Below are positions 8,586 through 63,950 of a stretch of DNA of 64,000 bases, in pieces (the first letter of the stretch is position 1; every line of letters starts with the position of its first letter). Position numbers and translations under genes: made by a program. A model generated the notes under the pieces. It ran no database searches. It was not told the DNA's origin and saw nothing but the letters and a program-made list of their open reading frames with translations. The DNA is taken from assembly GCA_020444065.1 (NCBI GenBank), contig JAHLLQ010000007.1:124001-188000 (forward strand), read 5' to 3'. The stretch comes from a bacterium (GTDB lineage Bacteria; Sumerlaeota; Sumerlaeia; SLMS01; JAHLLQ01).

Positions 8586-11500
8586 TTAGTAGATCATCCA
8601 GAGCTCGCCCTGGTTGTCGAACATGGTCTGGAGGTGCGTGACCATTTCGGGTGAGTAGCCGAGTGCCGCGTAGTCGATCGGGCTCTCGGTCGAGTGGCAG
8701 GTCGTACAGGACAATGCGTTGTCCTTGGTGATGCCGTGGCTGACAGAGAATCCGCCGCACTCGTTGACGCCGTAGTGATCGAACTCACCGGACACGGGCG
8801 CGAGGCCGTAGGTGTCCTGGAGTTCCTGGGTCCACATGGCGTCGTAGCTCGAGCGGCCGGTGGCCAGTGCGCCGTCCATGTTGCCGGTCTTGAAGAAGAT
8901 GCCCCACTTGATGGGCACCGGGTGACCGTTGGCGTCGAGCGGCTGGTTGAACTCGATGTGCTTGAACGGATAGATGCGGCCGTCGTCACGCGCGCCGAGC
9001 GGTGTAATCTCCGGACCGACTGTTCCGTTGAACCACTTGTAGTCGATCGGCGGAGTGCCTTCGGCGAATTCGATCTTCACGCCCCACAGTGCGAGCGGGT
9101 CGCCCGGGTCCGGCGGGACGTGATCGCTGAAGTCCTTGTACGTGGCGCTGCCGGTCGCGGTGGCGTGGCAGGTCGTACACGCGATCTTGTCGACGTGCTG
9201 GTTGTAGGCGTCGTTTTCGTGAGGCGTCTCGGTGTGGCACTCGGCGCACATTTCGCCATCGTAGACGGCGCCGTGTGCAGAGAGGTCGTTGTTCACCGGG
9301 CGGATCATTTCGTGTTCGCCGGCGTAGTGGCAGTCGCTGCAGCTCAAGCCTGCGTCGGCGTGAACGTCGGCGCCGTGGCCGTAGATGGAGCCGCGCTTGA
9401 AGCTGGCGTAGTTGTATTCGTCGGCCTGGAAGGTTCCACCACCGGCCGCCGCGTGGCAGCGCAAGCAGTAGTCGTACTTCGTCTTGCTCACGGTCTGCGC
9501 GACTTCGGTCAGCGTATCCCACTGGATCACGCCGTCGACCTTCGGGACGCCGAGGATGAGGGGCGTTCCGGCCCCGGTCAGCTCGGGCGAGCCATCGATG
9601 GTCGCTGTGTAGAACTTCCGCTTATAGTCGGCCGCGTGGCAGAGCAGGCAGTCGACGTTGTCGGCTTCGGAGGCCTGGACTTCGGTGCCGCCGTTCGCGG
9701 TGTAGGGCTTGAGGCCGATGCCGATGTGGCACTTGCCGCAGCCGCCCGGGTTGTCGATCTGGGGTGTCTCAGGCAGATCGCGCAAATTGCCGAGCCAGTT
9801 GAATTGAGGCAGGGTGGTGGGGAAGCCGCAGAGCTTCCACATCTTGCCGGACTTGGTGAAGGTGACCGGGTTGCCGTCGTGATCGAACTGGTAGCCTTCG
9901 GGCAGTTCGGACTCGAACTTGTAGTGTACGCTGGCCTGGACTTCGGCGATCTTGCCTTCGTGGCACTGTTCGCAGGTTTGCGGGCCTTCATAGGTTTCGA
10001 AGAGCGACGCGTGGCCCGGCCCACCGTTGAACAGGTTGGCGAGGTCCTCGGCTTCGATCGGCGTATAGCCGAGTGCGTCGAAGTCCATCTTGCCGTCGGG
10101 CGAGTGGCAGTCGGCGCAGCCAAGGGCTTCGGTCTTGGTGATGCCGTGGCTGACGGAGAAGCCGCCGCAGTCGATTTCGCCGTAGTGGTCGAATGGTCCT
10201 GGAGGCGCGGCCAGGCCGTACTTGGCCTGCATCTCCGGCGTCCACATGTCGGTGTAGAGCTGGAGGCCGGTGGCCAGGGCGCCGGCCATGTTGCCAGTCT
10301 TGAAGAAGATGCCCCACTTGATGGGAATCGGCTGGCCGTTGGCGTCGAGCGGCTGGTTGAAGGCGATGTGTTTGTAAGGATGGATCTTGCCATCGCCGCG
10401 CTCACCCAGCGGGGTGATTTCGGGGCCGACGGTTCCGTTGAACCACTTGTAGTCGATGGCGGGCTGACCTTCGGCGAACTCCATCTTGACCTTCCAGAGG
10501 CCAAGCGGATCGCTCGGGTCGGGCGCGATGTGCTGGCTGAAGTCCTTGTACGTGGCGCTGCCAACCGCGGTGGCGTGGCAGGTGGTACAGGACATCTTGT
10601 CCATGTGCATGTTGTAGGCTGCGATGTCGTGCGGTTCGGCGTCGTGGCACTTCAAGCACATCTCGCCTTCGTACACGGCATCGTGGGCTGTCAGGTCGTT
10701 ATTGACCGGACGGATCATGCGGTGCCCGCCATCGGAGTGACAGTCGGAGCAACTCAGGCCTGCGTCGGCGTGAACGTCGGCGCCGTGGCCGTAGATGGAG
10801 CCGCGCTTGAAGCTGGCGTAGTTGAACTCGTCGGCCTGGTAGGTTCCGCCGCCGGCGGCTGCGTGGCAGCGCAGGCAGGTTTCGTACTGGGTCTTGCCGA
10901 CGGACTTGGCCGCTTCGGTCTGGGATGCCCAGTCGATCACGCCATCCGCTCTCGGAACGGCGAGAACGATCGGACCGGAGGGACCCACTTCGGGTGCACC
11001 GCCAACGGTGGAAACGTAGAATTTCCGTTGGTAGTTCTCCGCGTGGCAGATGAGGCAATCCATGTTGTTGGCTTCACTGGCCTGGGGCTCGGTTTTGCCG
11101 ACGGCCGTGTAGGGCTTAGCGCCGATGCCGACGTGGCATTGCGCGCAGCCGCCAGGGGCGTCGACTTCGGGCGTCTCGGGGAGGTCCTTGAGAGCGCCGA
11201 GCCAGTTGAACTGCGGCACGGTGGTCGGGAAGCCGCAGAGCTTCCAGAGCTTGCCGCTTGTGTCGTATGCGACGGGGTTGCCGTCGTGGTCACGGACGTG
11301 GCCTTCGGGGATGGAGGATTCGAACTTGTAGTGAACGCTGCCCTGCATCTCTTCCATGGCGCCGGGGTGGCAGCGCTCGCACTGCTGCGGGCCTTCGTAG
11401 CTGTCGCCGATCAGGAAGTCGTGATCGGGCTCGATCAGCATCTTCTTGAGGATGTTCTGCATCTCGGGAGAGTAGCCGAGGGCTTCGAAGTCCAGGCGGC

Positions 11501-14500
11501 CGTTTTCTTCCGTGTGGCAATCGGCGCAGGAGAGCGCACCGTCCTTCTTGATGGCGTGGCTCAACGTAATGAATGAGCCGGTTACCGTGGTGGGGTCCAT
11601 GTCGGCAACGTAGCCGGGCGCGAACGGGTTGTCGGGCAGGTCGAGGCCTGCGTACGAACCGGACCACATCTGCGAGCCGATGCCGATCAGTTGTTCGCGT
11701 GTCATGCCTTCGGGCGACTGGCCCATGAAGAACAGGCCCATCTTTGCCATGCCGATGTGAATCGATGCGGTGACGTCGCCATTTGCGAAGTAGTCGGCGC
11801 GGTCCATCATGAGCATGTTGGGGAACTGTCCCATCATGGCTTCTTCCTGGGGGTTCAGTCCTTCAGGACGCATCATGCCGAACATCTTGAGTGCCGGAGC
11901 CATCTGGTTGAGGGCTGCCAGCATGGTGAAGTTCGGATCGAAGCTCGGCGTGCCAGGTAGGCCCAGCGCGTCCATTGGCTGGCCGCTGACGAAGTTGCGG
12001 AACGCCATGATCTTCGCGTCGGGTGTGTCACGCGTTGCGGGTTGCATATCCCAATTGCCGGCGTTGGCGACTGGTTCGGCCAGCATGGAGGCTTCGCCGG
12101 CGTACCAGCGATACTTGGGCGACTGGAGTTCGGGATCGTATTCCGAGTGTGGTTCGTATTGTCCGGTTTCGGCGTTGTAGACGGGGATGTTCGCTTCGGG
12201 TCCGTCGGCAACTCCGTAGGTCGGTGCCCAGACGCGGCGTGCCGCGCCGGACGTTTCCGGAATGTGGCAGGTTTCGCACGCGATCTTGTCCGTGTGCAGG
12301 TTCAGCCGCGGGTCGGACTCGTGCGGTGCGTCGGTGTGGCAGTTTTCGCAGCTCACTTCGACGTCCTGCAGATCCCATCCCATCATGTCGGTGACGCGGG
12401 AACCGCGTGCGATCTTGTGGTCGTCGACGACGTGGCACTCGGTGCAGTGCATGCCTGCCGCCGCGTGGACGTCGGTGTGGGGTTCGTAGGGTGTGCCGCG
12501 CTTGTAGGTGTAGTCGGCCTGGCCATGGTGGTGGCAGCGCAAGCAGGCTTCTGGTGTGACCGGGCCGCCGACGCTCCAGGCTGCTTCGAGCGTATCGTCG
12601 CGGTGCCAGACCATGCGGCCCAACTCGTCGTCGTAGACGAGCGGGCGTTGGTCGGCCAGTTCGAGTTCCTCCGCGACGCCGTTGTTATCGGCGTCGTATT
12701 CGGTCGCGTGGCAAATCAAGCAATCGAGAGTATCCTTTTGCTCCTGCGTGTACTCGCCGGTGCTCGGATCGGGGAAGGGCAGGCCATCGCCGACGTGGCA
12801 GCGGCCGCACTGCTGGTAGTAGTTCACGATCGAGTTCGAGCCAACGAGGCCGCAGGCGCGGTCGATCATGCCATGTGCGCCGCCGCCCGGGTACTCGATC
12901 GTGTCGTTTTCACTGCGCCACAGGTAGTGGACGGAGTCCATGACTTCGCCGCCGGCCTGCGGGTGGCAGACTTCGCATTGTGCGGGTCCGGTGTAGGTGT
13001 CGCCGATCAGGAACTTGTGATCGGGATTAGTCAGCATCGTCTTGAGGATGGTCTGCATTTCCTGGTCGTAGCCGAGTGCCTCGAAGTCCAGGCGGCCATC
13101 GTCTTCCGTGTGGCAGCTTGCACAGGTCAGGGCGCCGTCTTTCTTGATGGCGTGACTGACGGTGATGAAAGAGCCGGTCACCGTCGTGGGATCCATGTCC
13201 GGGACGTAGTTGGGCGCGAACGGGCTATCGGGCAAATCGAGGCCGGCGTAGACGCCGGACCACATTTGCGAGCCGATCGCGATCAACTGGTCGCGAGTCA
13301 TTCCGGCGGGGGATTGGCCTTGGAAGAACAAGCCCATTTTCGCCATGCCGATATGCACGGAAGCGGTGACGTCGCCGTTGGCGAAATAGTCCGCGCGATC
13401 CATGATCAGCATATTCGGGAATTGGCCCATCATGGCTTCTTCCTGGGGCGTCAGGCCTTCGGGGCGCATCAGGCCGAACATCTTGAGGGCCGGGGCCATC
13501 TGGTTCAGGGCAGCCAGCATCGTGAAGTTCGGATTGAAGTCCGGCGTGCCGGGCAGGCCCATGCCGTCCATCGGCTGGCCGCTGATGAAGTTACGGAATG
13601 GGGTAATCTTCGCTCCGGAGGAATCGCGGGTTGCGGGCTGCATGTCCCAGTTACCCGCGTTGGCAACGGGCTCGGCCAACATCGAGGCCTGGCCATTGTA
13701 CCAGCGATAGGAGGGCGGCTTCAACTCGCCGTCATATTCCGAGTAGGGTTCCCACTGGCCGGTTTCGGCGTTGTAGACGGGGACGTTGGCCTCGGGGCCT
13801 TCGGTCACGCCGTACGTCGGTGCCCAAACGCGACGGGCCGCACCGGAGACCTCCGGAATGTGGCAGGTCTCGCAGGCGATCTTGTCGGTGTGCAGATTGA
13901 GCATCACCTGGGTCTTGTGGGGGGCGTCGGTGTGGCACTTCTCGCAAGTCACGTCGACGTCTTGTCTTTCCCACGCGAACATGTCGGTAACGCGAGAGCC
14001 GCGGGCCATCTTGTGAGCGTCGACTTCGTGACACGCGGTGCAGTTCATGCCGGCCGCGGCGTGGACGTCGGTGTGGGGCTCGTAGGGCGTGCCGCGCTTG
14101 TACTCATAGTCCGCCTGGCCGTGATGGTGGCAACGCAGACAGGCTTCGGGGCTGACCGGGCCGCCGACGCTTTCGGCTGCCTGGGTACTTTCATCGCGAT
14201 GCCAGACCCACTTGCCCTTCTCGTCATCGTAGACGAGGGGGCGCTTGTCGGCGAGTTCGATCTCGTCGGCCTCGCCGTTGTTGTCCGCATCATAGGTGAC
14301 GGCGTGGCAGATCAGACAGTCGATGGAGATCTTCTGCTCGAAGGAGTATTCGCCCGTTGTCGGATCGGGGAAGGGGAGTCCTTCGCCGACGTGGCAACGG
14401 CCGCACTGGTCGTAGTAGTTCACGATGGAGTTCGAGCCGACGAGTCCGCAGGCGCGGTCGATCATACCGTGGGCGCCTCCGCCCGGGTATTCCACCGTGT

Positions 14501-14705
14501 CGTTTTCGGTGCGCCATGCGTAGTGCACCGAATCGATCACTTCGTTTGCCGCCTGCTTGTGACAGACGATGCAGCTTCTGGCGTCGACGTAGCCGTTGGG
14601 GAAGTACCCCTCGTGGCTTGTCATTGCCGGGGCCACAGCAGCTATAGCACAGAAGAGCAGAGCCCAATATGCCATATGCGGCTTGTGAAATATTTCACAA
14701 TTCAT
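8586..14705 (-). CDS. Giant tandem octaheme c-type cytochrome, 32 CxxCH motifs
   Basis: This 2,039-residue exported protein has an N-terminal signal (hydrophobic AYWALLFCAIAAVAPAM at 12-28). I count 32 CxxCH heme-attachment motifs arranged as four modules of exactly eight: about residues 44-535, 577-1063, 1108-1533 and 1577-2003. Modules 1 and 2 are near-copies, as are 3 and 4. Each module ends with an SHxIxK..AL.C..CH motif followed by a (M/L/I)D(F/Y).ALGY motif. That motif, and eight hemes per module, resemble the octaheme tetrathionate-reductase-like family, whose members are single modules; this assignment is from memory. A role as a multi-domain electron conduit or multi-site reductase is inferred. 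No quinol dehydrogenase is adjacent. ATG 14705 has GGGAGG about 11 nt upstream; ATG 14675 is the alternative start. Confidence 0.93.
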   Translation of the reverse strand: MNCEIFHKPHMAYWALLFCAIAAVAPAMTSHEGYFPNGYVDARSCIVCHKQAANEVIDSVHYAWRTENDTVEYPGGGAHGMIDRACGLVGSNSIVNYYDQCGRCHVGEGLPFPDPTTGEYSFEQKISIDCLICHAVTYDADNNGEADEIELADKRPLVYDDEKGKWVWHRDESTQAAESVGGPVSPEACLRCHHHGQADYEYKRGTPYEPHTDVHAAAGMNCTACHEVDAHKMARGSRVTDMFAWERQDVDVTCEKCHTDAPHKTQVMLNLHTDKIACETCHIPEVSGAARRVWAPTYGVTEGPEANVPVYNAETGQWEPYSEYDGELKPPSYRWYNGQASMLAEPVANAGNWDMQPATRDSSGAKITPFRNFISGQPMDGMGLPGTPDFNPNFTMLAALNQMAPALKMFGLMRPEGLTPQEEAMMGQFPNMLIMDRADYFANGDVTASVHIGMAKMGLFFQGQSPAGMTRDQLIAIGSQMWSGVYAGLDLPDSPFAPNYVPDMDPTTVTGSFITVSHAIKKDGALTCASCHTEDDGRLDFEALGYDQEMQTILKTMLTNPDHKFLIGDTYTGPAQCEVCHPQAGGEVMDSVHYLWRSENDTIEYPGGGAHGMIDRACGLVGSNSIVNYYQQCGRCHVGDGLPFPDPSTGEYTQEQKDTLDCLICHATEYDADNNGVAEELELADQRPLVYDDELGRMVWHRDDTLEAAWSVGGPVTPEACLRCHHHGQADYTYKRGTPYEPHTDVHAAAGMHCTECHVVDDHKIARGSRVTDMMGWDLQDVEVSCENCHTDAPHESDPRLNLHTDKIACETCHIPETSGAARRVWAPTYGVADGPEANIPVYNAETGQYEPHSEYDPELQSPKYRWYAGEASMLAEPVANAGNWDMQPATRDTPDAKIMAFRNFVSGQPMDALGLPGTPSFDPNFTMLAALNQMAPALKMFGMMRPEGLNPQEEAMMGQFPNMLMMDRADYFANGDVTASIHIGMAKMGLFFMGQSPEGMTREQLIGIGSQMWSGSYAGLDLPDNPFAPGYVADMDPTTVTGSFITLSHAIKKDGALSCADCHTEENGRLDFEALGYSPEMQNILKKMLIEPDHDFLIGDSYEGPQQCERCHPGAMEEMQGSVHYKFESSIPEGHVRDHDGNPVAYDTSGKLWKLCGFPTTVPQFNWLGALKDLPETPEVDAPGGCAQCHVGIGAKPYTAVGKTEPQASEANNMDCLICHAENYQRKFYVSTVGGAPEVGPSGPIVLAVPRADGVIDWASQTEAAKSVGKTQYETCLRCHAAAGGGTYQADEFNYASFKRGSIYGHGADVHADAGLSCSDCHSDGGHRMIRPVNNDLTAHDAVYEGEMCLKCHDAEPHDIAAYNMHMDKMSCTTCHATAVGSATYKDFSQHIAPDPSDPLGLWKVKMEFAEGQPAIDYKWFNGTVGPEITPLGERGDGKIHPYKHIAFNQPLDANGQPIPIKWGIFFKTGNMAGALATGLQLYTDMWTPEMQAKYGLAAPPGPFDHYGEIDCGGFSVSHGITKTEALGCADCHSPDGKMDFDALGYTPIEAEDLANLFNGGPGHASLFETYEGPQTCEQCHEGKIAEVQASVHYKFESELPEGYQFDHDGNPVTFTKSGKMWKLCGFPTTLPQFNWLGNLRDLPETPQIDNPGGCGKCHIGIGLKPYTANGGTEVQASEADNVDCLLCHAADYKRKFYTATIDGSPELTGAGTPLILGVPKVDGVIQWDTLTEVAQTVSKTKYDYCLRCHAAAGGGTFQADEYNYASFKRGSIYGHGADVHADAGLSCSDCHYAGEHEMIRPVNNDLSAHGAVYDGEMCAECHTETPHENDAYNQHVDKIACTTCHATATGSATYKDFSDHVPPDPGDPLALWGVKIEFAEGTPPIDYKWFNGTVGPEITPLGARDDGRIYPFKHIEFNQPLDANGHPVPIKWGIFFKTGNMDGALATGRSSYDAMWTQELQDTYGLAPVSGEFDHYGVNECGGFSVSHGITKDNALSCTTCHSTESPIDYAALGYSPEMVTHLQTMFDNQGELWMIY
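14683..14700. promoter_or_regulatory. 18-bp perfect palindrome at the cytochrome start (TGTGA-N6-TCACA)
   Basis: TTGTGAAATATTTCACAA is a perfect palindrome. It contains the CRP/FNR-superfamily half-sites TGTGA and TCACA with six bases between them. It is AT-rich within a GC-rich gene and overlaps codons 2-8 of the cytochrome, or its leader if translation begins at 14675. It could be a CRP-type site or the operator of the upstream ArsR-type regulator. Confidence 0.6.
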
Positions 14706-14768
14706 AGCCTCGAAATCCTCCCTTTCCTACCTCTTTTTATAGGCGTCCACAAAGGGGGCGCCCGAATT

Positions 14769-31941: not shown

Positions 31942-34923
31942 ATGCGCAAACTCACGACCTCTCTCTTGCTCGTGTTCTTCGGTCTCTTGCCGCTGGCAGC
32001 GTTGGGGCAGGCGACTGTGTACACGACAAATGTGCAGGGCGACCCCTACGCCGCGAGTGGTAACTACACGGTCGACATCGCCGTGAAGGATAACGCGCAA
32101 GGCAACGTGGCGTCTTACTCGCTGCGAATCTATTACGATCCGACCTCGACCGAACCGACGGCGATTGCGGATGTGGATCTGGGCGGGACTGCCCCGATAT
32201 TCGGCAACGGTGGTGCGGCTCAGACCGACGCTACTGGGACCTACAAGTCTGTCAACACCTTGGGCAACATCGGTGGCACAAGCCAGAATCTGACGCTGTG
32301 CCGGATCACGTTTACGAACACGGCCTCTGTGGCGCCTTCCTATGGAGTCTTCGTTACCCAGGATGGGTCGAACGTTCCGCTGATCAACACGTCGTTCACG
32401 CCGATTACGGTCGGCGTATACGATGATACGGAAACGAATCCGTTCCCGACGGCCACGGCGACACCGACGGACACGCCGAGTCCAACTCCATCCGAGACTC
32501 CAACGGCCACGCCGTCTGACACACCGACGGCTACCCCGTCTGCGACGCCGACGGACACTCCGAGCCCGACTCCGTCCGACACGCCGTCTCCGACGCCCTC
32601 GGACACTCCGACTGAGACTCCGACGGATACTCCGTCCCCGACTCCGTCCGATACGCCGACGGCAACTCCGTCCGACACACCGTCTCCGACGCCCTCGGAC
32701 ACTCCGACTGAGACTCCGACGGATACTCCGTCTCCGACTCCGTCCGATACGCCGACGGCAACGCCGTCTGACACACCGTCTCCGACGCCTTCGGATACTC
32801 CGTCCCCGACGCCTTCGGATACGCCAACGGCGACGCCGAGCCCGACTCCGGGGACGGGTGCAGTGGTCTACACGACGAACGTTGTGGGCGACCCGTATGC
32901 CGCGAGTGGTAACTACACGGTGGACATCGCCGTGAAGGATAACACGCAAGGCAACGTGGCGTCTTACGCGCTGCGAGTCTATTACGATCCGACCTCGACC
33001 GAACCGACGGCGATTGCGGATGTGGATCTGGGCGGGACTGCGCCGATATTCGGCAACGGTGGTGCGGCTCAGACCGACGCCACTGGGACCTACAAGTCTG
33101 TCAACACCTTGGGCAACATCGGTGGGACAAGCCAGAATCTGACGCTGTGCCGGATCACGTTTACGAACACGGCGTCTGTGGCGGTCTCCCACGGAGTCTT
33201 CCTCACCCAGGATGGGTCGAACGTTCCGCTGATCAATACGTCGTTCGCGCCGATTACGATCGGCGCCTACGATGATACGGAGACGAATCCGTTCCCGGGT
33301 GCGGCGACGCCGACTGCGACTCCGACGGATACGCCGACGGCGACTCCGACGGATACGCCGACTGCAACGCCGACCGAGACGCCGACTGTGACGCCGACGG
33401 ATACCCCGACGACGCCGACGCCGACTCCAACGGATACGCCGACGGAAACGCCGACGCCGACTCCGACGGATACGCCGACGACGGCTACGCCGACCCCGAC
33501 AGATACCCCGACTGCGACACCGACGCCGACGGATACTCCGACGACGCCGACCGCGACTCCGACGGAAACCCCGACGGCAACGCCGACTCCGACGGATACG
33601 CCGACGACTCCGACGCCGACGAGCACGCCAACGGTGACTCCGACGCCAACGGATACGCCGACCACTCCGACTCCGACGAGTACGCCGACTGCGACGCCGA
33701 CTCCGACGGATACTCCGACGACGCCGACTGCTACGCCGACGCCTACGGATACGCCGACGACTCCGACGCCGACGACAACTCCGACGCCGACGGCGACTCC
33801 GCCGCCCACGGATACTCCGACGCCGACGCCTACGGCGACGCCGGTGGAGTACACGTTCGTGCCTGGCACGGAAGGGTGGACGGATCACAGCTTCATGAGC
33901 TTCACGCCACCTGTGTTCGGCAATACGCCGGGTACGCCGGGTACGCTGGATATGACGGCGACGACGAACACGCAACAGGTGGGTATCTGGGAATCGCCTG
34001 CGTTCGAGTTGGTGCCGAGTGGCGGTACGCCTTCGCGGCCTGACGTGGTGGCCCTGATGGTTCAGGGGACGCCGAACGGTTCGCAGGTGTACGCCGCGAC
34101 CTATCGCGTGATGACGGACGAGACGGACCTGACGCTTGTGCCGCAGATCCGCGTTCGTACGACGGCGGAGAACAGCCAGCAGGCTGAGGTGCTCTCGATC
34201 GAGTCGCACGCCGATGGCGCGTTCTCGCCGACGCCCGCGGGCAACGACTACACGTTGATGTTCCGTCCGCCGGCCACGAGCCCGATCTTCCGGTTCGAGT
34301 TCGACTTGCTGAACTTCTATCCGCAGGATTCGGCTTCGGCGACGGTGATGCTGGATAATGTGATCGTGGTGCCGGTGGACAGCAGCTTCATGACCGGTGC
34401 GACGTCCGAGATGGTCTACGACTTCGTCGGCGACCAGGACGGCTGGGATCACTATACGTTCAACGGTCTGTTCGACGAGCCGACGTTCGCGTACGATTCG
34501 GCGAACTCTCGCCTGGGCATCACGGTGGAGAACACGCCGGGCTTCCAGTTCGGCTTCTGGGGCTCGACGATCGATCCTGCGAACAACGTGGATATCGTTG
34601 CCGGCCGCCTATACTGGGCCGAGTACAGCATTGGTACGAACATCGTGACGGCGGACGAAGTGCCTGAGTTCCGTCTGCGTCTGAACGAGTCGCTGTTCCG
34701 TGTGAGCCAGTACACGAACGTTGCTTCGACGGGCTCTGCGCTGAACGTTCCGACGCCGGGTTCGCCGATGGACTACGTGGTGTTCTTCCCGCCGAACATG
34801 GGCGTGGGCCGCGACCTTCTGTGCTCGTTCGACCTGCTTGCGGATCCGTCGATCCAGACGCTGGACATCGGCGGTTCGATCTACGTCGAACGTGTCGAGG
34901 TCTTCTCTGCACCGGCTCCGTAA
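31942..34923 (+). CDS. Secreted protein: two cohesin-like modules and Pro-Thr linkers
   Basis: This 993-residue protein has a signal peptide of about 22 residues. Module 1 (about 26-165) and module 2 (about 309-450) are near-identical cohesin-like domains beginning VYTTN.(Q/V)[12 protein letters not shown]. Pro/Thr/Asp/Ser-rich linkers follow them (about 170-305 and 453-633; [13 protein letters not shown]-type repeats). From about 635 come two beta-sandwich domains with matching openings ([13 protein letters not shown] and [13 protein letters not shown]). PT linkers are typical of extracellular multi-domain proteins. It may act as a scaffold. The stop is followed by a strong terminator. Confidence 0.85.
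32017..32445 (+). repeat. Cohesin-like module, copy 1 of a near-identical pair
   Basis: This coding segment is repeated at 32866-33294, 849 bp further on. Long stretches (for example around 32120-32330 versus 32969-33179) differ at only a few bases, indicating recent duplication or gene conversion inside one gene. Confidence 0.75.
32584..32775 (+). repeat. 96-bp tandem repeats in the Pro-Thr linker
   Basis: Two consecutive 96-bp units (32584-32679 and 32680-32775) encode the same 32-residue PT-rich block, and a partial third unit follows. They are embedded in a longer run of degenerate ACTCCGACG-like codon repeats. Confidence 0.75.
32866..33294 (+). repeat. Cohesin-like module, copy 2 of a near-identical pair
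   Basis: This is the partner of 32017-32445, encoding residues of about 309-450. Differences are mostly single synonymous or conservative changes. Confidence 0.75.
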
Positions 34924-44461: not shown

Positions 44462-45538
44462 TCAGTCGACCAAATTGGCAGTCGGGCTGGTGGCGGTTGC
44501 AACGGATTGCTCCGGGCCCACCAGGTTTCCCGTCTTGCCGGAGATATTGGTCGTCGTATTGTCTGTCAGGATATTGCTGAAGACTTGTTCTTCCTGGTTA
44601 CTGAAGAGGGCAATTCCCGTGTCATTGCCCGTGAGAAGATTCTGGGTGACGACGTTGTTCCCGCATCGTACTTGAATACCGGCGTCTGTATTCCCCGTGC
44701 AGTTGTTGTCGCGCACGATCGCCGTGCCACAGAGGTTGATGCCGTTTCCCCCGTTGTTTCGAGAGAGGCAGCCTTCGATGAGCGTATGACCACCAGCGGC
44801 CTGATAGATTCCATCGCTTCCATTCTGCTGGATGATGCAGTCGCGGACGATGGTGTGCGTGTCGATACGGATTCCAGTGAACAGTGCATGGTTCGCCATG
44901 CTGTCTTCGATGATCGAGGAGCCGAGGGACTTGATGCACGTCCCGGAAGTGTCGTTTCCAAACACCCGGCAGTCGCGGATGTAACTGAAGTACCCTACAC
45001 TCAGGGAGATTGTACCGTTCGAATCCAGGATCACGTTCTCGACTCGGGACCGTGAGCCCAAGTTGATCCCGCCGCCGGGCCACTCCGACACTTCACCATT
45101 GAAGACGGTAAGCGTTGAAGCCCCGGCGCCACTGATACCGAACAAGCTCGTGGGCGTGCCGACCATTCTGTAGCCGCGCAGATCGATGATGACGTTGTTA
45201 ACAGAGATCGAAATTCCATTCTTGGATTCCTCACCGGCCAGGTCCTGCCCCAGGTAGTAGTATCCGGGTGATGCGATGATGAAGGTCGAGTCTTCATCGC
45301 CGGGCGTGTTCTGGCTGTTCAATTCCGTTCCGGGTCGCGCGGTCGCCTCGATGAGCGTTTCCAGATCGTCGACCGATGATTGCACTTTACCGATGGAAGA
45401 GTCGATCTCGTCGAGCGACTTCATCGTTGGCGCAGGAGTCCCTGGCGGTGTCAGGGATCCTTGCGCGGAAACCAGTATCGGAAGGGACAGTGCCAGACCT
45501 ACAAGCGCTACGATTAAGTGAGAGCGAAGCTTCTTCAA
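44462..45538 (-). CDS. Secreted right-handed beta-helix protein, paralog 3
   Basis: This 358-residue exported protein has a signal of about 25 residues, then the family opening SLTPPGTPAPTMKSLDEID. A parallel beta-helix follows (Pectate-lyase/NosD-like; ISISVNNVIIDLRGYRM, then rungs such as SIIEDSMANHALFTGI and HTLIEGCLSRNNGGNGI). The C-terminus ends in SPTANLVD. The start is a TTG at 45538, placed by an AGGAGG box 6 nt upstream. No catalytic residues typical of lyases are obvious. The 3' neighbour is 13 nt away. Confidence 0.82.
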   Translation of the reverse strand: MKKLRSHLIVALVGLALSLPILVSAQGSLTPPGTPAPTMKSLDEIDSSIGKVQSSVDDLETLIEATARPGTELNSQNTPGDEDSTFIIASPGYYYLGQDLAGEESKNGISISVNNVIIDLRGYRMVGTPTSLFGISGAGASTLTVFNGEVSEWPGGGINLGSRSRVENVILDSNGTISLSVGYFSYIRDCRVFGNDTSGTCIKSLGSSIIEDSMANHALFTGIRIDTHTIVRDCIIQQNGSDGIYQAAGGHTLIEGCLSRNNGGNGINLCGTAIVRDNNCTGNTDAGIQVRCGNNVVTQNLLTGNDTGIALFSNQEEQVFSNILTDNTTTNISGKTGNLVGPEQSVATATSPTANLVD

Positions 45539-45674
45539 AGAGAACCTCCTTTGCCAGGCAGGCAAGGTGCAGAATTTGGCTAAATACCAGAGTTGTTGCC
45601 ATTCTGCAAAGTGTTGCTCGACTTGATGCGATCGTCAATGGATTCATTGGCGATCGGGTTGCAATCGCTCCTTG

Positions 45675-46706
45675 TCAGTCGACAAGATTGGCGGTGGGAC
45701 TGGTGGCGGTTGCGACGGATTGCTCCGGGCCGACCGAGTTTCCGGTTTCGCCGGAGATGTCTGTTGTATTCCCGACGAGCGTGTTGCTGTAGACTTGCTC
45801 GTTGCTGTTCGCGAAGAGCTTGATTCCCACGGCATTGCCTCGGACGAAGTTCGCCCTGACCAGGTTATAGCCGCAGCGTACATAGATTCCATTCAAGTCA
45901 TTTCCAGCCGAGAGATTATTCTGGAGTAGATTGTTGTAACACAAGTCGAACCCATCTTGTTGGTTATTCTGGGCGACACACCCCTCGACGATTGAGTACC
46001 CGCTGCTGTTTTGTGTGAATCCATCCATTCCATTGTTGTCTGAAACGCAGTCTCGAACAATGCAGTGTCCCAGAAATCCGATGCCCGTATAGACACAGTG
46101 CGATGCGAAGCACTCTTTGATGAGCGATCGGTCCTGGCAGTCGATCCCCATACTCGTTGTGTCATTTCCAAAAACCCGGCACCTCCGCACGGACAAGTTG
46201 TCCTTTCCATAGATGGCGGTAGAACCATTGGAATTGAGAATCAGATCTTCGATGACCGATCGATAGTCGGCCCTTACTCCTCCGCCGGGCCAATCGTCGA
46301 TGATCCCATTTCGAATGACGATCTCGTAGCGCGCCATTCCGTTAATGGCCCTTTGGCTCGTCGCATTGCCGGTCATCCTGTGTCCGCGGAGGTCGATCTG
46401 GACTCCATCGACATCAATGCGAATACCGTCCTTTGAGGGTTCGCCAACAACATCCTCGTCCAAGAAGTAACAGCCGGGATCAACAATCACGAATGTGGCC
46501 GTTCCATCGCCAGGCGTTGTTTGCGCGTTGATTGCGGTGCCAATCGGGCGGTTGGCTTCGACGGCGGTGTAGATCTCGTCCAGCGACTTCATGTTCGGGG
46601 CTGGTGTTCCGGGTGGCGTCAACGCGCCTTGCGCGATGAGCAAGACGGGAATGAGCAGGAAGATTGCAACTCCCGCCAGTTTCGTAGAGTGATTGGGATT
46701 GTTCAC
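45675..46706 (-). CDS. Secreted right-handed beta-helix protein, paralog 2
   Basis: The 343-residue exported paralog has the same architecture: signal peptide, ALTPPGTPAPNMKSLDEIYT opening, IRIDVDGVQIDLRGHRMTG, tandem beta-helix rungs and a near-identical C-terminus (GPEQSVATATSPTANLVD). It starts with GTG at 46706 with AGGAGG spaced like the paralog at 45538. The leader is similar in both genes (AGGAGGTTCT), suggesting shared control. Function unknown. Confidence 0.85.
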   Translation of the reverse strand: MNNPNHSTKLAGVAIFLLIPVLLIAQGALTPPGTPAPNMKSLDEIYTAVEANRPIGTAINAQTTPGDGTATFVIVDPGCYFLDEDVVGEPSKDGIRIDVDGVQIDLRGHRMTGNATSQRAINGMARYEIVIRNGIIDDWPGGGVRADYRSVIEDLILNSNGSTAIYGKDNLSVRRCRVFGNDTTSMGIDCQDRSLIKECFASHCVYTGIGFLGHCIVRDCVSDNNGMDGFTQNSSGYSIVEGCVAQNNQQDGFDLCYNNLLQNNLSAGNDLNGIYVRCGYNLVRANFVRGNAVGIKLFANSNEQVYSNTLVGNTTDISGETGNSVGPEQSVATATSPTANLVD

Positions 46707-46738
46707 AAGAACCTCCTCAGGTTCCCCCTCTGGGGTTA

Positions 46739-47761
46739 TTACGGAATTACGAAATTCGCGGTGGGACTGGTTGCGGTTGTGGGAAGTTGGGCTGGGCCGA
46801 AGTAGTTGCCGGTTGTTCCGGAGAAGGCGGTTGTGTTTCCCACGAGCGTATTGCCGTAGACAACCTCGCTTCCGTTCGTGGATGCGGTGATACCTGTATC
46901 ATTGTTACGGATCAGGTTCTCTGTGACCATGTTCTTGCCACACCTCAGGTAGATTCCAGTCGTGTTTTTGTATGCAACGCAGTTACGAACGATATTTCCC
47001 GCGCAGAGGGAAAAGCCATCCGGGTTGTTGAGATTGGAGACGCAGTTTTCAAGAATGCTGCCACCTCCGCTCCCCTGGGCGAAACCGACGCCTCCGTTGT
47101 TGATTGCGGTACAGTTCCGGATGACGCAGCCCCCTCCGAAGGCGAATCCGGCGCCATCGCCTGATGCCGCCGTACAGTTCTCCAAGTATGCCAAGTCCCC
47201 GGCGTAATAGGCGGTGGAAGCACTGCTGACGACGCGACAGTTTCTCATAATAGCGGATCCGGACGTACTAATGCCCGCGCCCCCGCAGTCGTACACCAGG
47301 AGTCCATCGATTCTGGTATGGATGTATCCGACGACGCCGCCCTCAGGCCAAGTGCGGACTGTCCCATTGGAAACGCGGAAGTTGCTGCTGCTTGCCGCGT
47401 TGATAGCGATCTTGCTATTTGGGACTCCCGTCAGCGTGAAGCCATGCAGGTCGATCGTGACATCGTCTGCAGTGACCGAAATACCATCCTTGTTTTCTTC
47501 GCCTGTCAGGTTCTCGGTCAGGTAGTAAGAGCCCGGTTCGGTGATCAGGAACGTGGCGACGGCGCCGCCAGGAACGGTTTCCTGATTGATGGGAATACCG
47601 ATCGGGCCGCTGGCTTCGGCGGCCGTGTAGATTTCATCCAAGGATTTCATGATGGGGGCCGGCGTGCCGGGCGGGGTCAACGGACCCTGGGCGCTACAGA
47701 TCGAAGTTAAAGCGAGTGCCAGTGCCGTACAGAATACGGCAAGGCGCAGGGAACTCCTCAT
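46739..47761 (-). CDS. Secreted right-handed beta-helix protein, paralog 1
   Basis: The 340-residue exported protein is the most diverged of the three: GPLTPPGTPAPIMKSLDEIY opening, ISVTADDVTIDLHGFTLTG, Cys-containing rungs (IRNCTAINNGG, LENCVSNLNN, VRNCVAYKN) and the ending SPTANFVIP. RBS GGAGGTGAG precedes ATG 47761. As the first of four co-directional genes (47761 down to 43825) it may head an operon. Function unknown. Confidence 0.85.
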   Translation of the reverse strand: MRSSLRLAVFCTALALALTSICSAQGPLTPPGTPAPIMKSLDEIYTAAEASGPIGIPINQETVPGGAVATFLITEPGSYYLTENLTGEENKDGISVTADDVTIDLHGFTLTGVPNSKIAINAASSSNFRVSNGTVRTWPEGGVVGYIHTRIDGLLVYDCGGAGISTSGSAIMRNCRVVSSASTAYYAGDLAYLENCTAASGDGAGFAFGGGCVIRNCTAINNGGVGFAQGSGGGSILENCVSNLNNPDGFSLCAGNIVRNCVAYKNTTGIYLRCGKNMVTENLIRNNDTGITASTNGSEVVYGNTLVGNTTAFSGTTGNYFGPAQLPTTATSPTANFVIP

Positions 47762-59606: not shown

Positions 59607-60296
59607 CTACACGAACAGAATAAATCGTACGCTCATCCAAATACCAATTCCGATAAAGAGCACGCCGGTGATGCGTCGGGCCCAGAGTTCGAAGGCGCTG
59701 ACGCGTTTGAAGGCCGCTCCCAGGCCGTTTGCCCCGAACGCAATCACCAGTGCAAAGCCCAGCACCGGGATGGCCGTTCCAATTCCGTAGATGCCCGGAT
59801 AAATGATCGAGGAACCGCTCTTCACGGTGAGAGGCAAGAGGCTGCCGAAGAAGAGCGCCGCGGATGTCGGGCAAAACGAAAGGGCGAAGACAAAACCCAG
59901 AAGGCCTGCTCCCCAGACGCCGAACTTGTCCGCATGCTTCTGCATCTTCTGTCCCCAGGAGGATCCGGAGCCGGACGGCAGGGACAATAGCTCCAGTAGG
60001 AACATGCCGACGACAATCAGCAGGGGTCCCATCAGCATGTTCATGTACTTCTGGAGGAAGTGCGAGAGTTGCGGCACAGCCAGGAGGCTGGCGGAGAGAA
60101 TGACGCCGAGCACGAGATACGTCAGCGTGCGGCCGGCCGTGTAGAGCAGGCCTGACCACACGGCGAGCCGCGTCTTTTCAACGCGGCGAGAGATGTACGA
60201 CACGGCCGCGATGTTTGTGGCGAGCGGGCACGGACTGATCGATGTCAGGATGCCGAGCCAGAGCGCCGTGCCCAGCCCAATCAGCCACTCTGTCAC
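59607..60296 (-). CDS. ArsG-like efflux permease (CcdA/DsbD-type fold)
   Basis: This 229-residue membrane protein with about six segments starts IGLGTALWLGILTSISPCPLATNIAAVSYI. It resembles ArsG-type permeases, which in some bacteria export aromatic aminobenzyl arsenicals; naming follows that family as I recall it. A conserved SPCPLATN and later SFCPTSAALFFGSL carry Cys residues that could relay thiols as in CcdA. It overlaps the ArsF-like gene (ATGA) and closes the operon. Its stop is 7 nt from the convergent ruvB stop. Confidence 0.85.
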   Translation of the reverse strand: MTEWLIGLGTALWLGILTSISPCPLATNIAAVSYISRRVEKTRLAVWSGLLYTAGRTLTYLVLGVILSASLLAVPQLSHFLQKYMNMLMGPLLIVVGMFLLELLSLPSGSGSSWGQKMQKHADKFGVWGAGLLGFVFALSFCPTSAALFFGSLLPLTVKSGSSIIYPGIYGIGTAIPVLGFALVIAFGANGLGAAFKRVSAFELWARRITGVLFIGIGIWMSVRFILFV

Positions 60297-60811
60297 GATT
60301 CGTCGCCTGCCATGAAGTCGACTGTGTTTTCCACGACGTACTCCTCAAACTCCTGCGGAGTCTCATGGATCTTCGTCCAGATGTCCGGCAGGTTCTTCCA
60401 GCGCAAGATCGTGTCGCCGCGTTCTTCCGTCAGGATGACGGATTGAAACGCCAGTTCGAAGTCGTCGCGGAAGTGGGTGTTCTCCGGCTCGTCGTAATTG
60501 ACGAGCCGCCACTCCATGTCGCCGGCATCGAGCTGATCGGCGAACATTGTCGAGATGGCGTCGCGGGACTGTTTCTCGATCGCGTTGCAGGTCGTGCAGC
60601 GCACATTGCCGTGGAAGTAGTAAACGACAAAGTGCGTTTCCTCGAGCGCCTTGATGGGTTCGTTTGTCGATTGGGCCTCAGTCTTCGTTTGCACCGTTGC
60701 CGTAGACTCGATGGGCGCAGGCTCACTGCGCATCTCTTTCACGACGATGGCGGCCAGGCTGATGCCGACGAAGAGCAGCAATGCCGCCGTGATGATTGCT
60801 TTGGGTTTCAT
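60293..60811 (-). CDS. ArsF-like nitroreductase subunit
   Basis: The 172-residue protein has an N-terminal membrane anchor (AIITAALLLFVGISLAAIVV) and a thioredoxin-like periplasmic or cytoplasmic domain with the YYFHGNVRCTTCNAIEKQS motif (about 65-83). This matches ArsF of nitrophenylarsenic-handling operons as I recall the family. The CTTC pair is a plausible redox centre. It overlaps the ArsG-like gene by four bases. The physiological substrate here is not proven. Confidence 0.85.
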   Translation of the reverse strand: MKPKAIITAALLLFVGISLAAIVVKEMRSEPAPIESTATVQTKTEAQSTNEPIKALEETHFVVYYFHGNVRCTTCNAIEKQSRDAISTMFADQLDAGDMEWRLVNYDEPENTHFRDDFELAFQSVILTEERGDTILRWKNLPDIWTKIHETPQEFEEYVVENTVDFMAGDES

Positions 60812-60821
60812 ACCGTTCTCC

Positions 60822-61055
60822 TCAGGTCAGCATTGCTCGAAGTTCACTTGCAGAGGGCAGTTTGCCTGCGCTCTTCACCTCGCCATCGACGACCAGGGCG
60901 GGGGTTGTCATGACGCCGAATTCCACGATGTCATTGATGTCGGTCACCTTCTCCAGTTCGTACTCGATGCCTGCTTCTTTCGCGGCGGCCTCGGTCAATT
61001 CGGCGAGCTTCTTACACTTCGGGCAACCGGTGCCCAGCACTTGCAGTTTCTTCAT
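60822..61055 (-). CDS. Small thioredoxin-fold protein (TM0996/MTH895-type)
   Basis: The 77-residue single-domain glutaredoxin-like protein has the redox motif GTGCPKCKKL (Cys11-x-x-Cys14) and the cis-Pro region MTTPALVVDGEVKSAG. Such proteins often accompany arsenical or permease genes; it may supply electrons to the ArsF-like subunit or play the ArsE role. RBS AGGGAG precedes the ATG. It lies 10 nt upstream of the ArsF-like gene. Confidence 0.9.
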   Translation of the reverse strand: MKKLQVLGTGCPKCKKLAELTEAAAKEAGIEYELEKVTDINDIVEFGVMTTPALVVDGEVKSAGKLPSASELRAMLT

Positions 61056-61089
61056 TGTTCACTCCCTTTCCTGATTCCGGTGTGAGTTT

Positions 61090-61878
61090 TTAGTAGAACA
61101 GCCGGATCACCATCAGCGATCCGATGACCAGCAAGAACCAGCCAAACGCTTTCTTGAGCCTGAGTTTGTCGATGCCCACGGTGAGTCGGCTTCCGATCTG
61201 GGCGCCCGCGAAGACGACGACGCCCAGAATGAGCGAGGTTTTCCAGTCCCAATGGCCCTGCAGAATATGACCAGCCAGGCCGGCGACTGCCGTCATTCCC
61301 ACCATGAAGGCGCTGCTGCCGACGGCGATATCCATGGGGATCCCGAGAAGCAGAACCATGACGGGGACTTTCAGAATGCCTCCGCCGACACCGAGGAGGC
61401 CTGAGAAAAGACCAACGAGCAAGGACACGGAAAGTGCCAGCGGGAGATTAACGCAGTAGGTTCTGTCGCCGAGCGATCTTCTCCAATGAAGTCGCGTTCT
61501 CTTCACCTCAGAGCAATGATCCTTCTGCGTCTTCGGAGAGAGCATGAAGTAGGATGAGACGAAGACCATGACGGCAAAGAGCACCGACAAGGGACCGGCC
61601 GTGAACCACGAGGAGACGATTCCTCCCAGGAAGCCTCCCACCATCGTCGACGACTCGAGCGTGATCGCCAGTCCCCAGTCGGTTTTCTTTGCTTTGCGAA
61701 AGACGATCGTTGAAGAGAGCGAGACTGCGGCGATCAGAAACAGGCTCGTCGCTGCGGCTTCGTGAAAGTCGATTCCCGCCCAAACCTGAATCGGGGTGTA
61801 GACCACCCCGCCTCCCTGGCCCATCATGGAGAAGATGGCAGAGAAGACGAAGAACACGGCTATGAGAATCAGGATCAT
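61090..61878 (-). CDS. TauE/SafE-family membrane exporter
   Basis: The 262-residue membrane protein has about eight segments. Both TauE/SafE halves are visible: FSMMGQGGGVVYTPIQVWAG with ATSLFLIAAVSLS, and LFSGLLGVGGGILKVPVMV with AVGSSAFMVGMTAV. Family members export sulfur-containing or other organic anions. A polar, basic central loop (KTQKDHCSEVKRTRLHWRR) separates the halves. The location in the ars-like operon suggests export of a thiol- or arsenic-related anion. Confidence 0.88.
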   Translation of the reverse strand: MILILIAVFFVFSAIFSMMGQGGGVVYTPIQVWAGIDFHEAAATSLFLIAAVSLSSTIVFRKAKKTDWGLAITLESSTMVGGFLGGIVSSWFTAGPLSVLFAVMVFVSSYFMLSPKTQKDHCSEVKRTRLHWRRSLGDRTYCVNLPLALSVSLLVGLFSGLLGVGGGILKVPVMVLLLGIPMDIAVGSSAFMVGMTAVAGLAGHILQGHWDWKTSLILGVVVFAGAQIGSRLTVGIDKLRLKKAFGWFLLVIGSLMVIRLFY

Positions 61879-61911
61879 GGCAAGTGATTCCCTTCAACAC
61901 TCGGTGCAGCC

Positions 61912-62526
61912 TCAGCCCCTAATCGCTTTCTCGCGGCATGGGATGCAGACTTTCTTATCGTTGAGGATTCGCCCATAGGGTTCGACGGTCATCTCGCCGC
62001 AGATGTCGCAGACGAATCCCGCGAAAGAATGCGGCGGAGACTCCAGCGCGTACTCGAAGACATCGCTCACGATCAGCAGATCTTCTTCCGGAGCGGACAT
62101 CACTCGCTCGACCAATGGGGCGATGACCTCTTCAGGGACTTCCGAGGCTGGAATGCCTTTCTCGCGATAGTCCTTGAAGAAGGAAGACTGTTTGTTGGCC
62201 TGCATCGCTTCCGCCTTGGGGGTTACGCGCACCGCGCGTCCGGATTTCTTTTCGACCAAAGTGAGACCCCACTTCCCGTAGTGGAGCCTCTGAATGTTGC
62301 CTTTGCCGAAGGTGCAACCCGTGATCATTTGAACGCCGTCTGCGAAGCAGGTTGCGCAGTGGTTCTCTCCGATTTCTACCAGGGCGACGAGCTGTCCGTC
62401 TTTTGATCTCTCGACGCCTAACATGTTCATGGCGGCTGCCCCGACCCGCAGACCCATGGGCATTGCGGGGCACTTGTGGCCGTGCAATTGAAGGCCGGCT
62501 TCGTAGTAAGTTCTCGCGTCAATCAT
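61912..62526 (-). CDS. FmdE-family protein with C-terminal zinc finger
   Basis: This 204-residue protein matches FmdE: LQLHGHKCPAMPMGLRVGAAAM with HGHKCP, IGENHCATCFADGVQMITGCTFGKGNI, and a C-terminal treble-clef finger (CDICGEMTVEPYGR with CIPCREKAI). FmdE is linked to molybdenum/tungsten formylmethanofuran dehydrogenase operons, but bacterial relatives occur in diverse metal contexts. Its inclusion in an ars-like operon is notable. It lies 33 nt upstream of the TauE gene. Confidence 0.9.
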   Translation of the reverse strand: MIDARTYYEAGLQLHGHKCPAMPMGLRVGAAAMNMLGVERSKDGQLVALVEIGENHCATCFADGVQMITGCTFGKGNIQRLHYGKWGLTLVEKKSGRAVRVTPKAEAMQANKQSSFFKDYREKGIPASEVPEEVIAPLVERVMSAPEEDLLIVSDVFEYALESPPHSFAGFVCDICGEMTVEPYGRILNDKKVCIPCREKAIRG

Positions 62527-62552
62527 GGTACTGCCTTCCTTTCAGAAATTCT

Positions 62553-63950
62553 TTAGTGGAACAGGTTGCCGTAAAGCAAACCACTGAGCGTTGCCAACAC
62601 GACCACGAGACCGACGAAGATGAGGGTCTTCTTCGTGCCCATCACGCTGCGGATAACGATCATATTGGGAAGGGAAAGCGCCGGTCCGGCGAGCAGCAGC
62701 GCCAGGGCCGGGCCTTCGCCCATGCCGGCGCCCAGCAGACCTTGGAGGATCGGCACTTCGGTGAGTGTTGCGAAGTACATGAATGCCCCGGCGATCGAGG
62801 CGAATGCGTTTGCTCCGAAGGAGTTGCCGCCGAGTGCGTTCTCCACCCAGGCCGAAGGGATCAGGCCTTCGTGGCCGGGACGTCCTAGCAGCAGGCCGGC
62901 AATGACAACGCCGGCGAGCAGAAGCGGCAGGATCTTCTTTGCGAAGTCCCATGTTTGGCCGAGCCAGTCGGCGAGCTCTTCGTTGCCGTTGGTTGCCATC
63001 ATGGCCAGTGCGATGACTCCGGCAACAAATGGGATGAGTGGGTAAGAGGGGAACAGGAAGGCTAACGCGCCGGCGGCGATAACGGAGACGACGACCTCGA
63101 TAAGTCGGACCGCATAGAAGAGATGCAGTCCGGCTGCGAGGATGAGCGCGAACCCCGACGTGACGATCCAGCGCCAGGACCAGATTGCGTACCACACGCC
63201 CGATTGCTCCTCTGGATGCCCCCAGTTGGCGAACACCAGGATGCCCGTCATCGCGGCCAGCATCGTGGCCGTTTGCCAGAGCGGGCGGCTTTCCGGTATC
63301 GGAGGTTGCTTCGCGGCTTCGGCCGCTTTCTCGGCCTCTTCCTTTGCGAAGAGCAGCGCCATGACCAGGCCGATGACGACGCTGAAGACGATCGCGAAGA
63401 TCGCTCGCGCGAGGCCGAGTTCAATCCCAAGAACGCGCGCCGTCAGGACAACTGCCAGGATGTTGATGGCGGGGCCGCTGTAGAGGAATGCGGCCGCTGG
63501 ACCAAGCCCGGCGCCGCGCTTCCAGATGCCAGCGAATAGCGGCAGCACCGTGCAGGAACAGACGGCGAGCAATGTTCCGCTGGTCGCTGCCACGCTGTAG
63601 GCCACCAGCTTGTTTGCTTTTGCGCCGAGGTACTTCATCACGGCGGTTTGGCTGACGAAGGCACCGATTGCTCCGGCAATGAAGAACGCCGGGATCAGGC
63701 AGAGCAGCACGTGCTCCTGGGCGTACCACTTGGTCAGCGCCAGCGATTCGTGAACGGCGTTGTTGAAGCGCGCCTGGTCGATGGGAAGGAAGTACGCCAC
63801 GCCGAATACGGCGATCAACGCGAGGAGGATCTTGCCTTCCGTGCCGACGAGCGGCCCGAGGCGCTCGCGCCAGGGTGGGCTTGGCTTTTGGTTGTTTGGC
63901 GTATTCGCCAAGTCCTTGCTCAAAAAAGGGGCGGAGGCTTTCGTGCTCAT
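62553..63950 (-). CDS. YraQ/DUF318-type permease
   Basis: The 465-residue membrane protein has roughly ten segments and two homologous halves: VLLCLIPAFFIAGAIGAFVS with SGTLLAVCSCTVLPLFAGIWKRGAG and AAAFLYSGPAINILAVVL, then KILPLLLAGVVIAGLLLG with FASIAGAFMYFATLTEVPI and GPALALLLAGPALSLPNMIV. The Cys-Ser-Cys motif CSCTVLP is typical of the family, some of which (ArsP) export organoarsenicals. A Gly/Pro-rich N-terminal tail precedes it. The ATG overlaps the previous gene's stop (ATGA). Confidence 0.9.
   Translation of the reverse strand: MSTKASAPFLSKDLANTPNNQKPSPPWRERLGPLVGTEGKILLALIAVFGVAYFLPIDQARFNNAVHESLALTKWYAQEHVLLCLIPAFFIAGAIGAFVSQTAVMKYLGAKANKLVAYSVAATSGTLLAVCSCTVLPLFAGIWKRGAGLGPAAAFLYSGPAINILAVVLTARVLGIELGLARAIFAIVFSVVIGLVMALLFAKEEAEKAAEAAKQPPIPESRPLWQTATMLAAMTGILVFANWGHPEEQSGVWYAIWSWRWIVTSGFALILAAGLHLFYAVRLIEVVVSVIAAGALAFLFPSYPLIPFVAGVIALAMMATNGNEELADWLGQTWDFAKKILPLLLAGVVIAGLLLGRPGHEGLIPSAWVENALGGNSFGANAFASIAGAFMYFATLTEVPILQGLLGAGMGEGPALALLLAGPALSLPNMIVIRSVMGTKKTLIFVGLVVVLATLSGLLYGNLFH

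Follow-up and report, generated by a model that had tools for sequence, protein, structure and literature searches.

Does a polypeptide in which four octaheme cytochrome units follow one another act as a long electron wire, or as a reductase with several active sites? This question, put forward in an earlier note, is raised by a gene in a stretch of 64,000 nucleotides from a bacterium of the Sumerlaeota (GenBank assembly GCA_020444065.1, contig JAHLLQ010000007.1, positions 124,001 to 188,000; referred to below as the window). The gene, at window positions 8586-14705, encodes a cytochrome of 2,039 amino acids whose 32 CxxCH heme-binding motifs are grouped into four modules of eight. Judging from conserved residues, we consider it reasonably probable that this cytochrome is an oxidoreductase with several active sites, secreted to the periplasm or the surface, in which four octaheme enzymes of the octaheme tetrathionate reductase (OTR) superfamily are united in one chain.

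Module architecture and kinship with OTR

The heme count given in the earlier note, exactly eight motifs per module in one protein of this length, agrees with our motif count; residue shuffles of the mature protein yielded a mean of 0.11 and a maximum of 3 CxxCH motifs in 2,000 trials. Splitting the protein at its repeats gave the module order A-A-B-B, with lengths of 532, 532, 469 and 478 residues:

8586..14705, minus strand: gene of the 2,039-residue four-module cytochrome, the sole TIGR04315 locus of its genome
13026..14621, minus strand: module A1, residues 29-560, eight CxxCH motifs, Cys86 and Lys203; TIGR04315 at E 1.3e-48, 166 bits
11430..13025, minus strand: module A2, residues 561-1092, eight CxxCH motifs, Cys618 and Lys735; TIGR04315 at E 6.9e-46, 157 bits
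10023..11429, minus strand: module B1, residues 1093-1561, eight CxxCH motifs, Cys1157 and Lys1300; TIGR04315 at E 2.1e-26, 93 bits
8589..10022, minus strand: module B2, residues 1562-2039, eight CxxCH motifs, Cys1626 and Lys1770; TIGR04315 at E 4.1e-32, 112 bits

The four octaheme modules claimed earlier are indeed four complete units, but they are not equivalent, forming instead two pairs from two subfamilies: identity is 80% between A1 and A2 and 68% between B1 and B2, and falls to 27-29% between A and B. Heme spacings are 56-29-59-33-32-24-250 in both A modules and 78-30-60/61-42-31-23-157 in both B modules, the A modules carrying about 90 additional residues between hemes 7 and 8. Every one of the three junctions spans 48-49 residues, counted from the final heme motif of a module to the first motif of its successor.

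Octaheme proteins of the OTR type occur widely, and there is no settled view of what they do physiologically. All four modules match the OTR family NCBIfam TIGR04315 (E 1e-26 to 1e-48); single modules score 93-166 bits, below the curated cut-off of 375 bits, while the whole chain reaches 483 bits as the sum over its modules. With the whole protein as query, the OTR of Shewanella oneidensis (PDB 1SP3) was the sole solved structure matched by sequence. An AlphaFold2 model of A2 together with the first 58 residues of B1 (590 residues, 108 alignment rows) had a predicted local distance difference test score (pLDDT) of 83 and a predicted template modelling score of 0.82, with a pLDDT of about 73 for the 58 B1 residues; in a Foldseek search with the A2 model, 1SP3 was the only significant PDB match (E 2e-17, target template modelling score 0.67). 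The sequence matches, and for A2 the modelled fold, support the view, proposed in the earlier note, that all four modules are complete octaheme units within the OTR superfamily. All modules show the broad OTR features, namely eight CxxCH motifs in OTR order and the distal histidines. The resemblance nevertheless stops short of the canonical clade: A and B are separated from the Vibrio/1SP3-type sequences by a branch with 100/98 support, and each module taken singly stays below the family cut-off. The protein contains neither a match to PF02335 (NrfA) nor a CxxCK motif.

Active-site residues

The lysine of a KRG motif (Lys175 in module numbering) aligns in every module with Lys153 of 1SP3, the axial ligand of the OTR catalytic heme (on the catalytic-heme lysine of OTR-type proteins see PMC12285233), and it is conserved in 38 of 38 relatives in a first alignment and in 107 of the 108 rows of a later one. 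By alignment, the corresponding codons are:

14097..14099, minus strand: Lys203 codon (A1), equivalent to Lys153 of 1SP3
12501..12503, minus strand: Lys735 codon (A2), equivalent to Lys153 of 1SP3
10806..10808, minus strand: Lys1300 codon (B1), equivalent to Lys153 of 1SP3
9396..9398, minus strand: Lys1770 codon (B2), equivalent to Lys153 of 1SP3

Fourteen histidines are invariant in the 108 rows, eight belonging to CxxCH motifs and six others. Adding the lysine brings the candidate ligands to 15, against 16 axial positions, which leaves one or more positions open in every module; the ligand pairing at individual hemes is putative and follows the alignment.

One non-heme cysteine per module (Cys58 in module numbering) aligns with Cys64 of 1SP3, which we take to lie beside the catalytic heme. 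Its codons, again placed by alignment, are:

14448..14450, minus strand: Cys86 codon (A1), Cys/Sec position, equivalent to Cys64 of 1SP3
12852..12854, minus strand: Cys618 codon (A2), Cys/Sec position
11235..11237, minus strand: Cys1157 codon (B1), Cys/Sec position
9828..9830, minus strand: Cys1626 codon (B2), Cys/Sec position

Among the relatives, all 38 Cys-type rows have cysteine at this position, and 23 of the 25 Desulfobacterota loci analysed (L119-L122 and L124-L144) have an in-frame TGA there; in the other two (L119 and L124) the extracted sequence ends at the Cys position, with a TGA in similar context. When TGA is read as Cys, 102 of the 108 rows carry cysteine here. RNA 3' of the TGA forms more stable structures than the corresponding RNA of the Cys forms (mean z -1.8 versus -0.4), and a GGUGC-AGGU-GCACC-like hairpin follows the TGA in the Desulfobacterota homologs. 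These homologs thus probably carry selenocysteine at the catalytic Cys position. Exchange of Cys for Sec at one position typically marks a catalytic redox residue; seen throughout this family, it suggests that a residue with a role in catalysis lies beside the Lys-ligated heme. On the basis of GenBank annotation, a 2026 review includes TIGR04315 in its list of selenoprotein families, without giving a motif (PMC13188914). Separately, B1 and B2 each contain one extra non-heme cysteine (residues 1513 and 1983, around positions 10164-10169 and 8754-8759) in the sequence CGGFSVSHG, directly before a conserved distal histidine; it is absent in the B-type relative G016.

A point of comparison for a conducting role is MmcA of Methanosarcina acetivorans, an OTR-related c-heme chain whose family, TIGR04314, matches the whole protein at E 5e-20. 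MmcA has seven hemes and functions as an electron conduit (PMC11024163), and it lacks the second heme motif and the catalytic lysine. Because this related conduit has lost heme 2 and the lysine, and because all four modules of the Sumerlaeota protein keep the catalytic-heme lysine and the Cys/Sec position, a four-site reductase is favored over a wire, the two options between which the earlier note had left the choice.

Integrity, origin and rarity of the tandem

The locus had been reported without a strand. The frame is on the minus strand, and the plus-strand reading of 8586-14705 is interrupted by stops; plus-strand open reading frames of 960 and 950 amino acids within the gene were taken as GC-driven shadow frames. 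Two features, both read by eye, mark its start:

14716..14727, minus strand: strong Shine-Dalgarno-like sequence, AAAGGGAGGA / GGAAAGGGAGGA, about 10 nucleotides upstream of the ATG
14622..14705, minus strand: predicted Sec-type signal peptide, residues 1-28, hydrophobic core AYWALLFCAIAAVAPA

The N-terminus reads as expected for the exported protein proposed before, and sequence inspection of the 2,039 residues revealed neither a lipobox nor a further hydrophobic or membrane anchor.

A chain of near repeats known from one genome only might be suspected to be an artefact in which the assembly fused separate genes. The copies, however, differ at 22% of nucleotides between A1 and A2 and at 26% between B1 and B2, with longest exact shared runs of only 25 nt in the A pair and 67 nt in the B pair; the gene reads open through all 2,039 codons, its linkers being in frame and of equal length, and lies internally on a 254-kb contig (genome of 5.2 Mb in 14 contigs, 97% complete). 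Copy divergence and contig context make a repeat-assembly artefact unlikely, and we regard such a fusion as extremely improbable. Non-synonymous and synonymous divergence amount to 0.14 and 0.98 in the A pair (ratio about 0.15) and to 0.23 and 0.73 in the B pair (ratio about 0.31). Purifying selection acts on both members of each pair, and the combination of high synonymous with low non-synonymous divergence indicates that all four modules are kept by selection. The 67-nt identical run between B1 and B2 (window 8589-11429) exceeds the expectation from 74% DNA identity; it is a possible gene conversion and, going by the protein alignment, probably sits around the Lys site.

Maximum-likelihood analysis placed A1 and A2 as sisters (100/99) adjoining a single-module protein of the Sumerlaeota (L024), and B1 and B2 as sisters (88/96) in a clade with L046 and a fragment from G016 (100/99). 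On this phylogeny, A and B represent two old single-module subfamilies, each duplicated inside the gene, and the gene most likely arose in this lineage by fusion of a single A with a single B gene, followed by internal duplication of each. The A-like proteins L024 and L007 (Ca. Sumerlaeota, JAFGKF010000046) have the same ligands, with 53% identity to the A modules in L024, but L024 consists of one module and is encoded in a multiheme/porin cluster. The B-like G016 fragments likewise share the ligands (58-60% identity to the B modules) with one module per protein, the C-terminal fragment bearing a heme-free extension of about 420 amino acids. L046, also B-like, from a metagenome-assembled genome of Deltaproteobacteria (Myxococcota), is lipoprotein-like and has one module with the same ligands.

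The tandem form appears to be rare. A scan of one genome per species across 84,980 species with two peptide patterns returned 47 loci, all with one OTR module each. Searches with module profiles covered 40 Sumerlaeota genomes, 27 genomes that carry these loci and samples from five further phyla (Desulfobacterota, Planctomycetota, Myxococcota, Acidobacteriota and Bacteroidota); in these roughly 1,950 genome searches, with strict thresholds and 3-4 candidates per genome scored in the large samples, the present protein remained the only one to contain multiple OTR modules. Further multi-module OTR proteins are likely absent from the searched genomes, and a tandem OTR form was not found in the literature published under open licences. 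The proposed check for homologs with two, three or four modules has thus returned only single OTR modules, a few of them fused to other heme parts. The earlier statement that known members are single-module holds for every relative found, with one qualification: three 16-heme fusions from Desulfobacterota and Phycisphaerae (L110, L111 and L123) carry an OTR module, with Lys and Cys kept, within a longer multiheme chain. They combine one OTR module with a distinct octaheme part and contain no OTR tandem. The long frames that were opened contained a single OTR module joined to heme parts of another kind, either octaheme or smaller.

Genomic setting and proposed function

Genes for a SpoU-family rRNA methylase and a DUF1963 protein flank the locus. 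Elsewhere, the host genome encodes ResB/CcsA-type cytochrome c maturation, a NapC/NrfH-like multiheme protein, a molybdopterin/iron-sulfur complex that we read as alternative complex III, and a separate true NrfA. Nitrite ammonification is less favored as the main role of the protein, since the host has its own NrfA. At C1:694000-708000 of the same genome (L094), a beta-barrel-like protein, an NHL-repeat protein and 11-heme and 13-heme cytochromes are encoded together, a candidate outer-membrane electron conduit by gene content. In another member of the Sumerlaeota (L096, G013:C341:18000-34929), a beta-barrel, an NHL protein, cytochromes with 11, 24, 6, 3 and 8 hemes and a cytochrome b561-like protein accompany a single A-type OTR. 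The barrel/NHL/11-heme trio of this cluster has orthologues in the host genome (L094; 31-45% identity).

The window contains further loci of separate interest. Three adjoining secreted paralogs at 44462-47761 (minus strand) have the common motif LTPPGTPAPxMKSLDEI, a secreted protein at 31942-34923 (plus strand) carries one domain twice with long Pro/Thr-rich repeats between, and an ArsP_1 permease, a small CxxC thioredoxin-like protein and more membrane proteins at 59607-63950 (minus strand) possibly form one operon.

As a four-site oxidoreductase, the protein would receive electrons from the quinol pool via another cytochrome (NapC/NrfH-like, encoded elsewhere in the genome). The electrons would spread across the hemes of a module, and a small substrate would be reduced at the Lys-ligated heme beside the Cys, as in the OTR of S. 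oneidensis, which reduces tetrathionate, nitrite and hydroxylamine (PMC4484225). The two module types suggest two substrates or two steps, and the fusion might serve to group four sites with a reserve of as many as 32 electrons on a single chain.

Some observations weigh against a four-site oxidoreductase. The modules stand in a clade of their own, and the substrates of OTR may not carry over to them; the four-module tandem is known from one genome; and no redox function linked to the gene was found among the window neighbours on either strand. As most single-module relatives are likewise solitary, the neighbourhood names no substrate. In L096, the sole Sumerlaeota relative with an informative neighbourhood, the position of an A module beside a putative conduit cluster would fit a relay equally well.

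This last arrangement, together with the orthologous trio in the host genome, also speaks for a trans-periplasmic or cell-surface wire of about 200 Å (based on about 55 Å per seven-heme MmcA module) in which the catalytic heme is kept but unused. Tandem multiheme chains acting as wires or stores do exist, as exemplified by GSU1996 with four times three hemes (PMC10138318), MmcA provides an OTR-related precedent, and near-identical linkers of 48-49 residues recur at every junction. Yet MmcA dispenses with precisely those elements, the second heme motif and the lysine, that all four modules retain along with the cysteine, and we consider a pure wire unlikely. A two-module AlphaFold2 model of A2-B1 (14 rows) reached a mean pLDDT of 36.5, too low for inter-module geometry. 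The enzyme and wire readings are not mutually exclusive, however: four modules might be strung across the periplasm, with heme contact unbroken from one module to the next, and feed four Lys/Cys hemes of two specificities, which would allow multi-step reduction on one molecule. We judge such a combination rather unlikely.

An electron store, buffering when an acceptor is absent, has been proposed for GSU1996 (PMC10138318), and 32 hemes would hold many electrons. The protein mass per heme, 6.9 kDa, falls between the electron-transfer and catalytic classes (PMC7096707). A capacitor leaves unexplained, however, why two old subfamilies have kept in every module a Lys and a Cys that storage does not require, and it seems to us quite improbable. 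We would give a similarly low chance to the tandem being a neutral product of duplication and fusion, with four independent ordinary enzymes on one chain and a gain in dosage only. The pairs do stem from internal duplication, the linkers resemble simple joins and the single-module relatives work alone, but purifying selection on both copies of each pair implies that every module matters, which limits neutrality, albeit not dosage. The protein combines two OTR subfamilies, each doubled in the course of evolution, with every catalytic residue kept. This opens the testable questions whether tethered octaheme enzymes exchange electrons and whether the A and B subfamilies differ in substrate; should electrons indeed pass between modules, the protein would serve as a naturally occurring template for a long heme wire with catalytic function.

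Among known systems, the OTR of S. oneidensis (SO4144) shares with the modules the order of the eight CxxCH motifs, the fold, the equivalents of Lys153 and Cys64 and the conserved distal histidines, but it has one module, belongs to the canonical clade and carries KHG at the lysine, whereas the Sumerlaeota protein has four modules from two other clades with KRG. The GSU1996-type nanowire cytochromes of Geobacter likewise comprise four homologous heme modules per chain; these are triheme modules with 12 hemes in total, and the proteins have been described as wire or capacitor, not as enzyme. The number of hemes is no record, since S-layer cytochromes of archaea have been reported to carry 32 and 33 hemes, and up to 80 have been mentioned (PMC10052568). 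The large cytochromes of anaerobic methanotrophic archaea (e.g., 32 hemes in 1,647 amino acids, PMC10052568) thus resemble the Sumerlaeota protein in heme number per chain, but they carry an S-layer domain, are archaeal surface conduits and are not stated to be tandems of octaheme enzymes.

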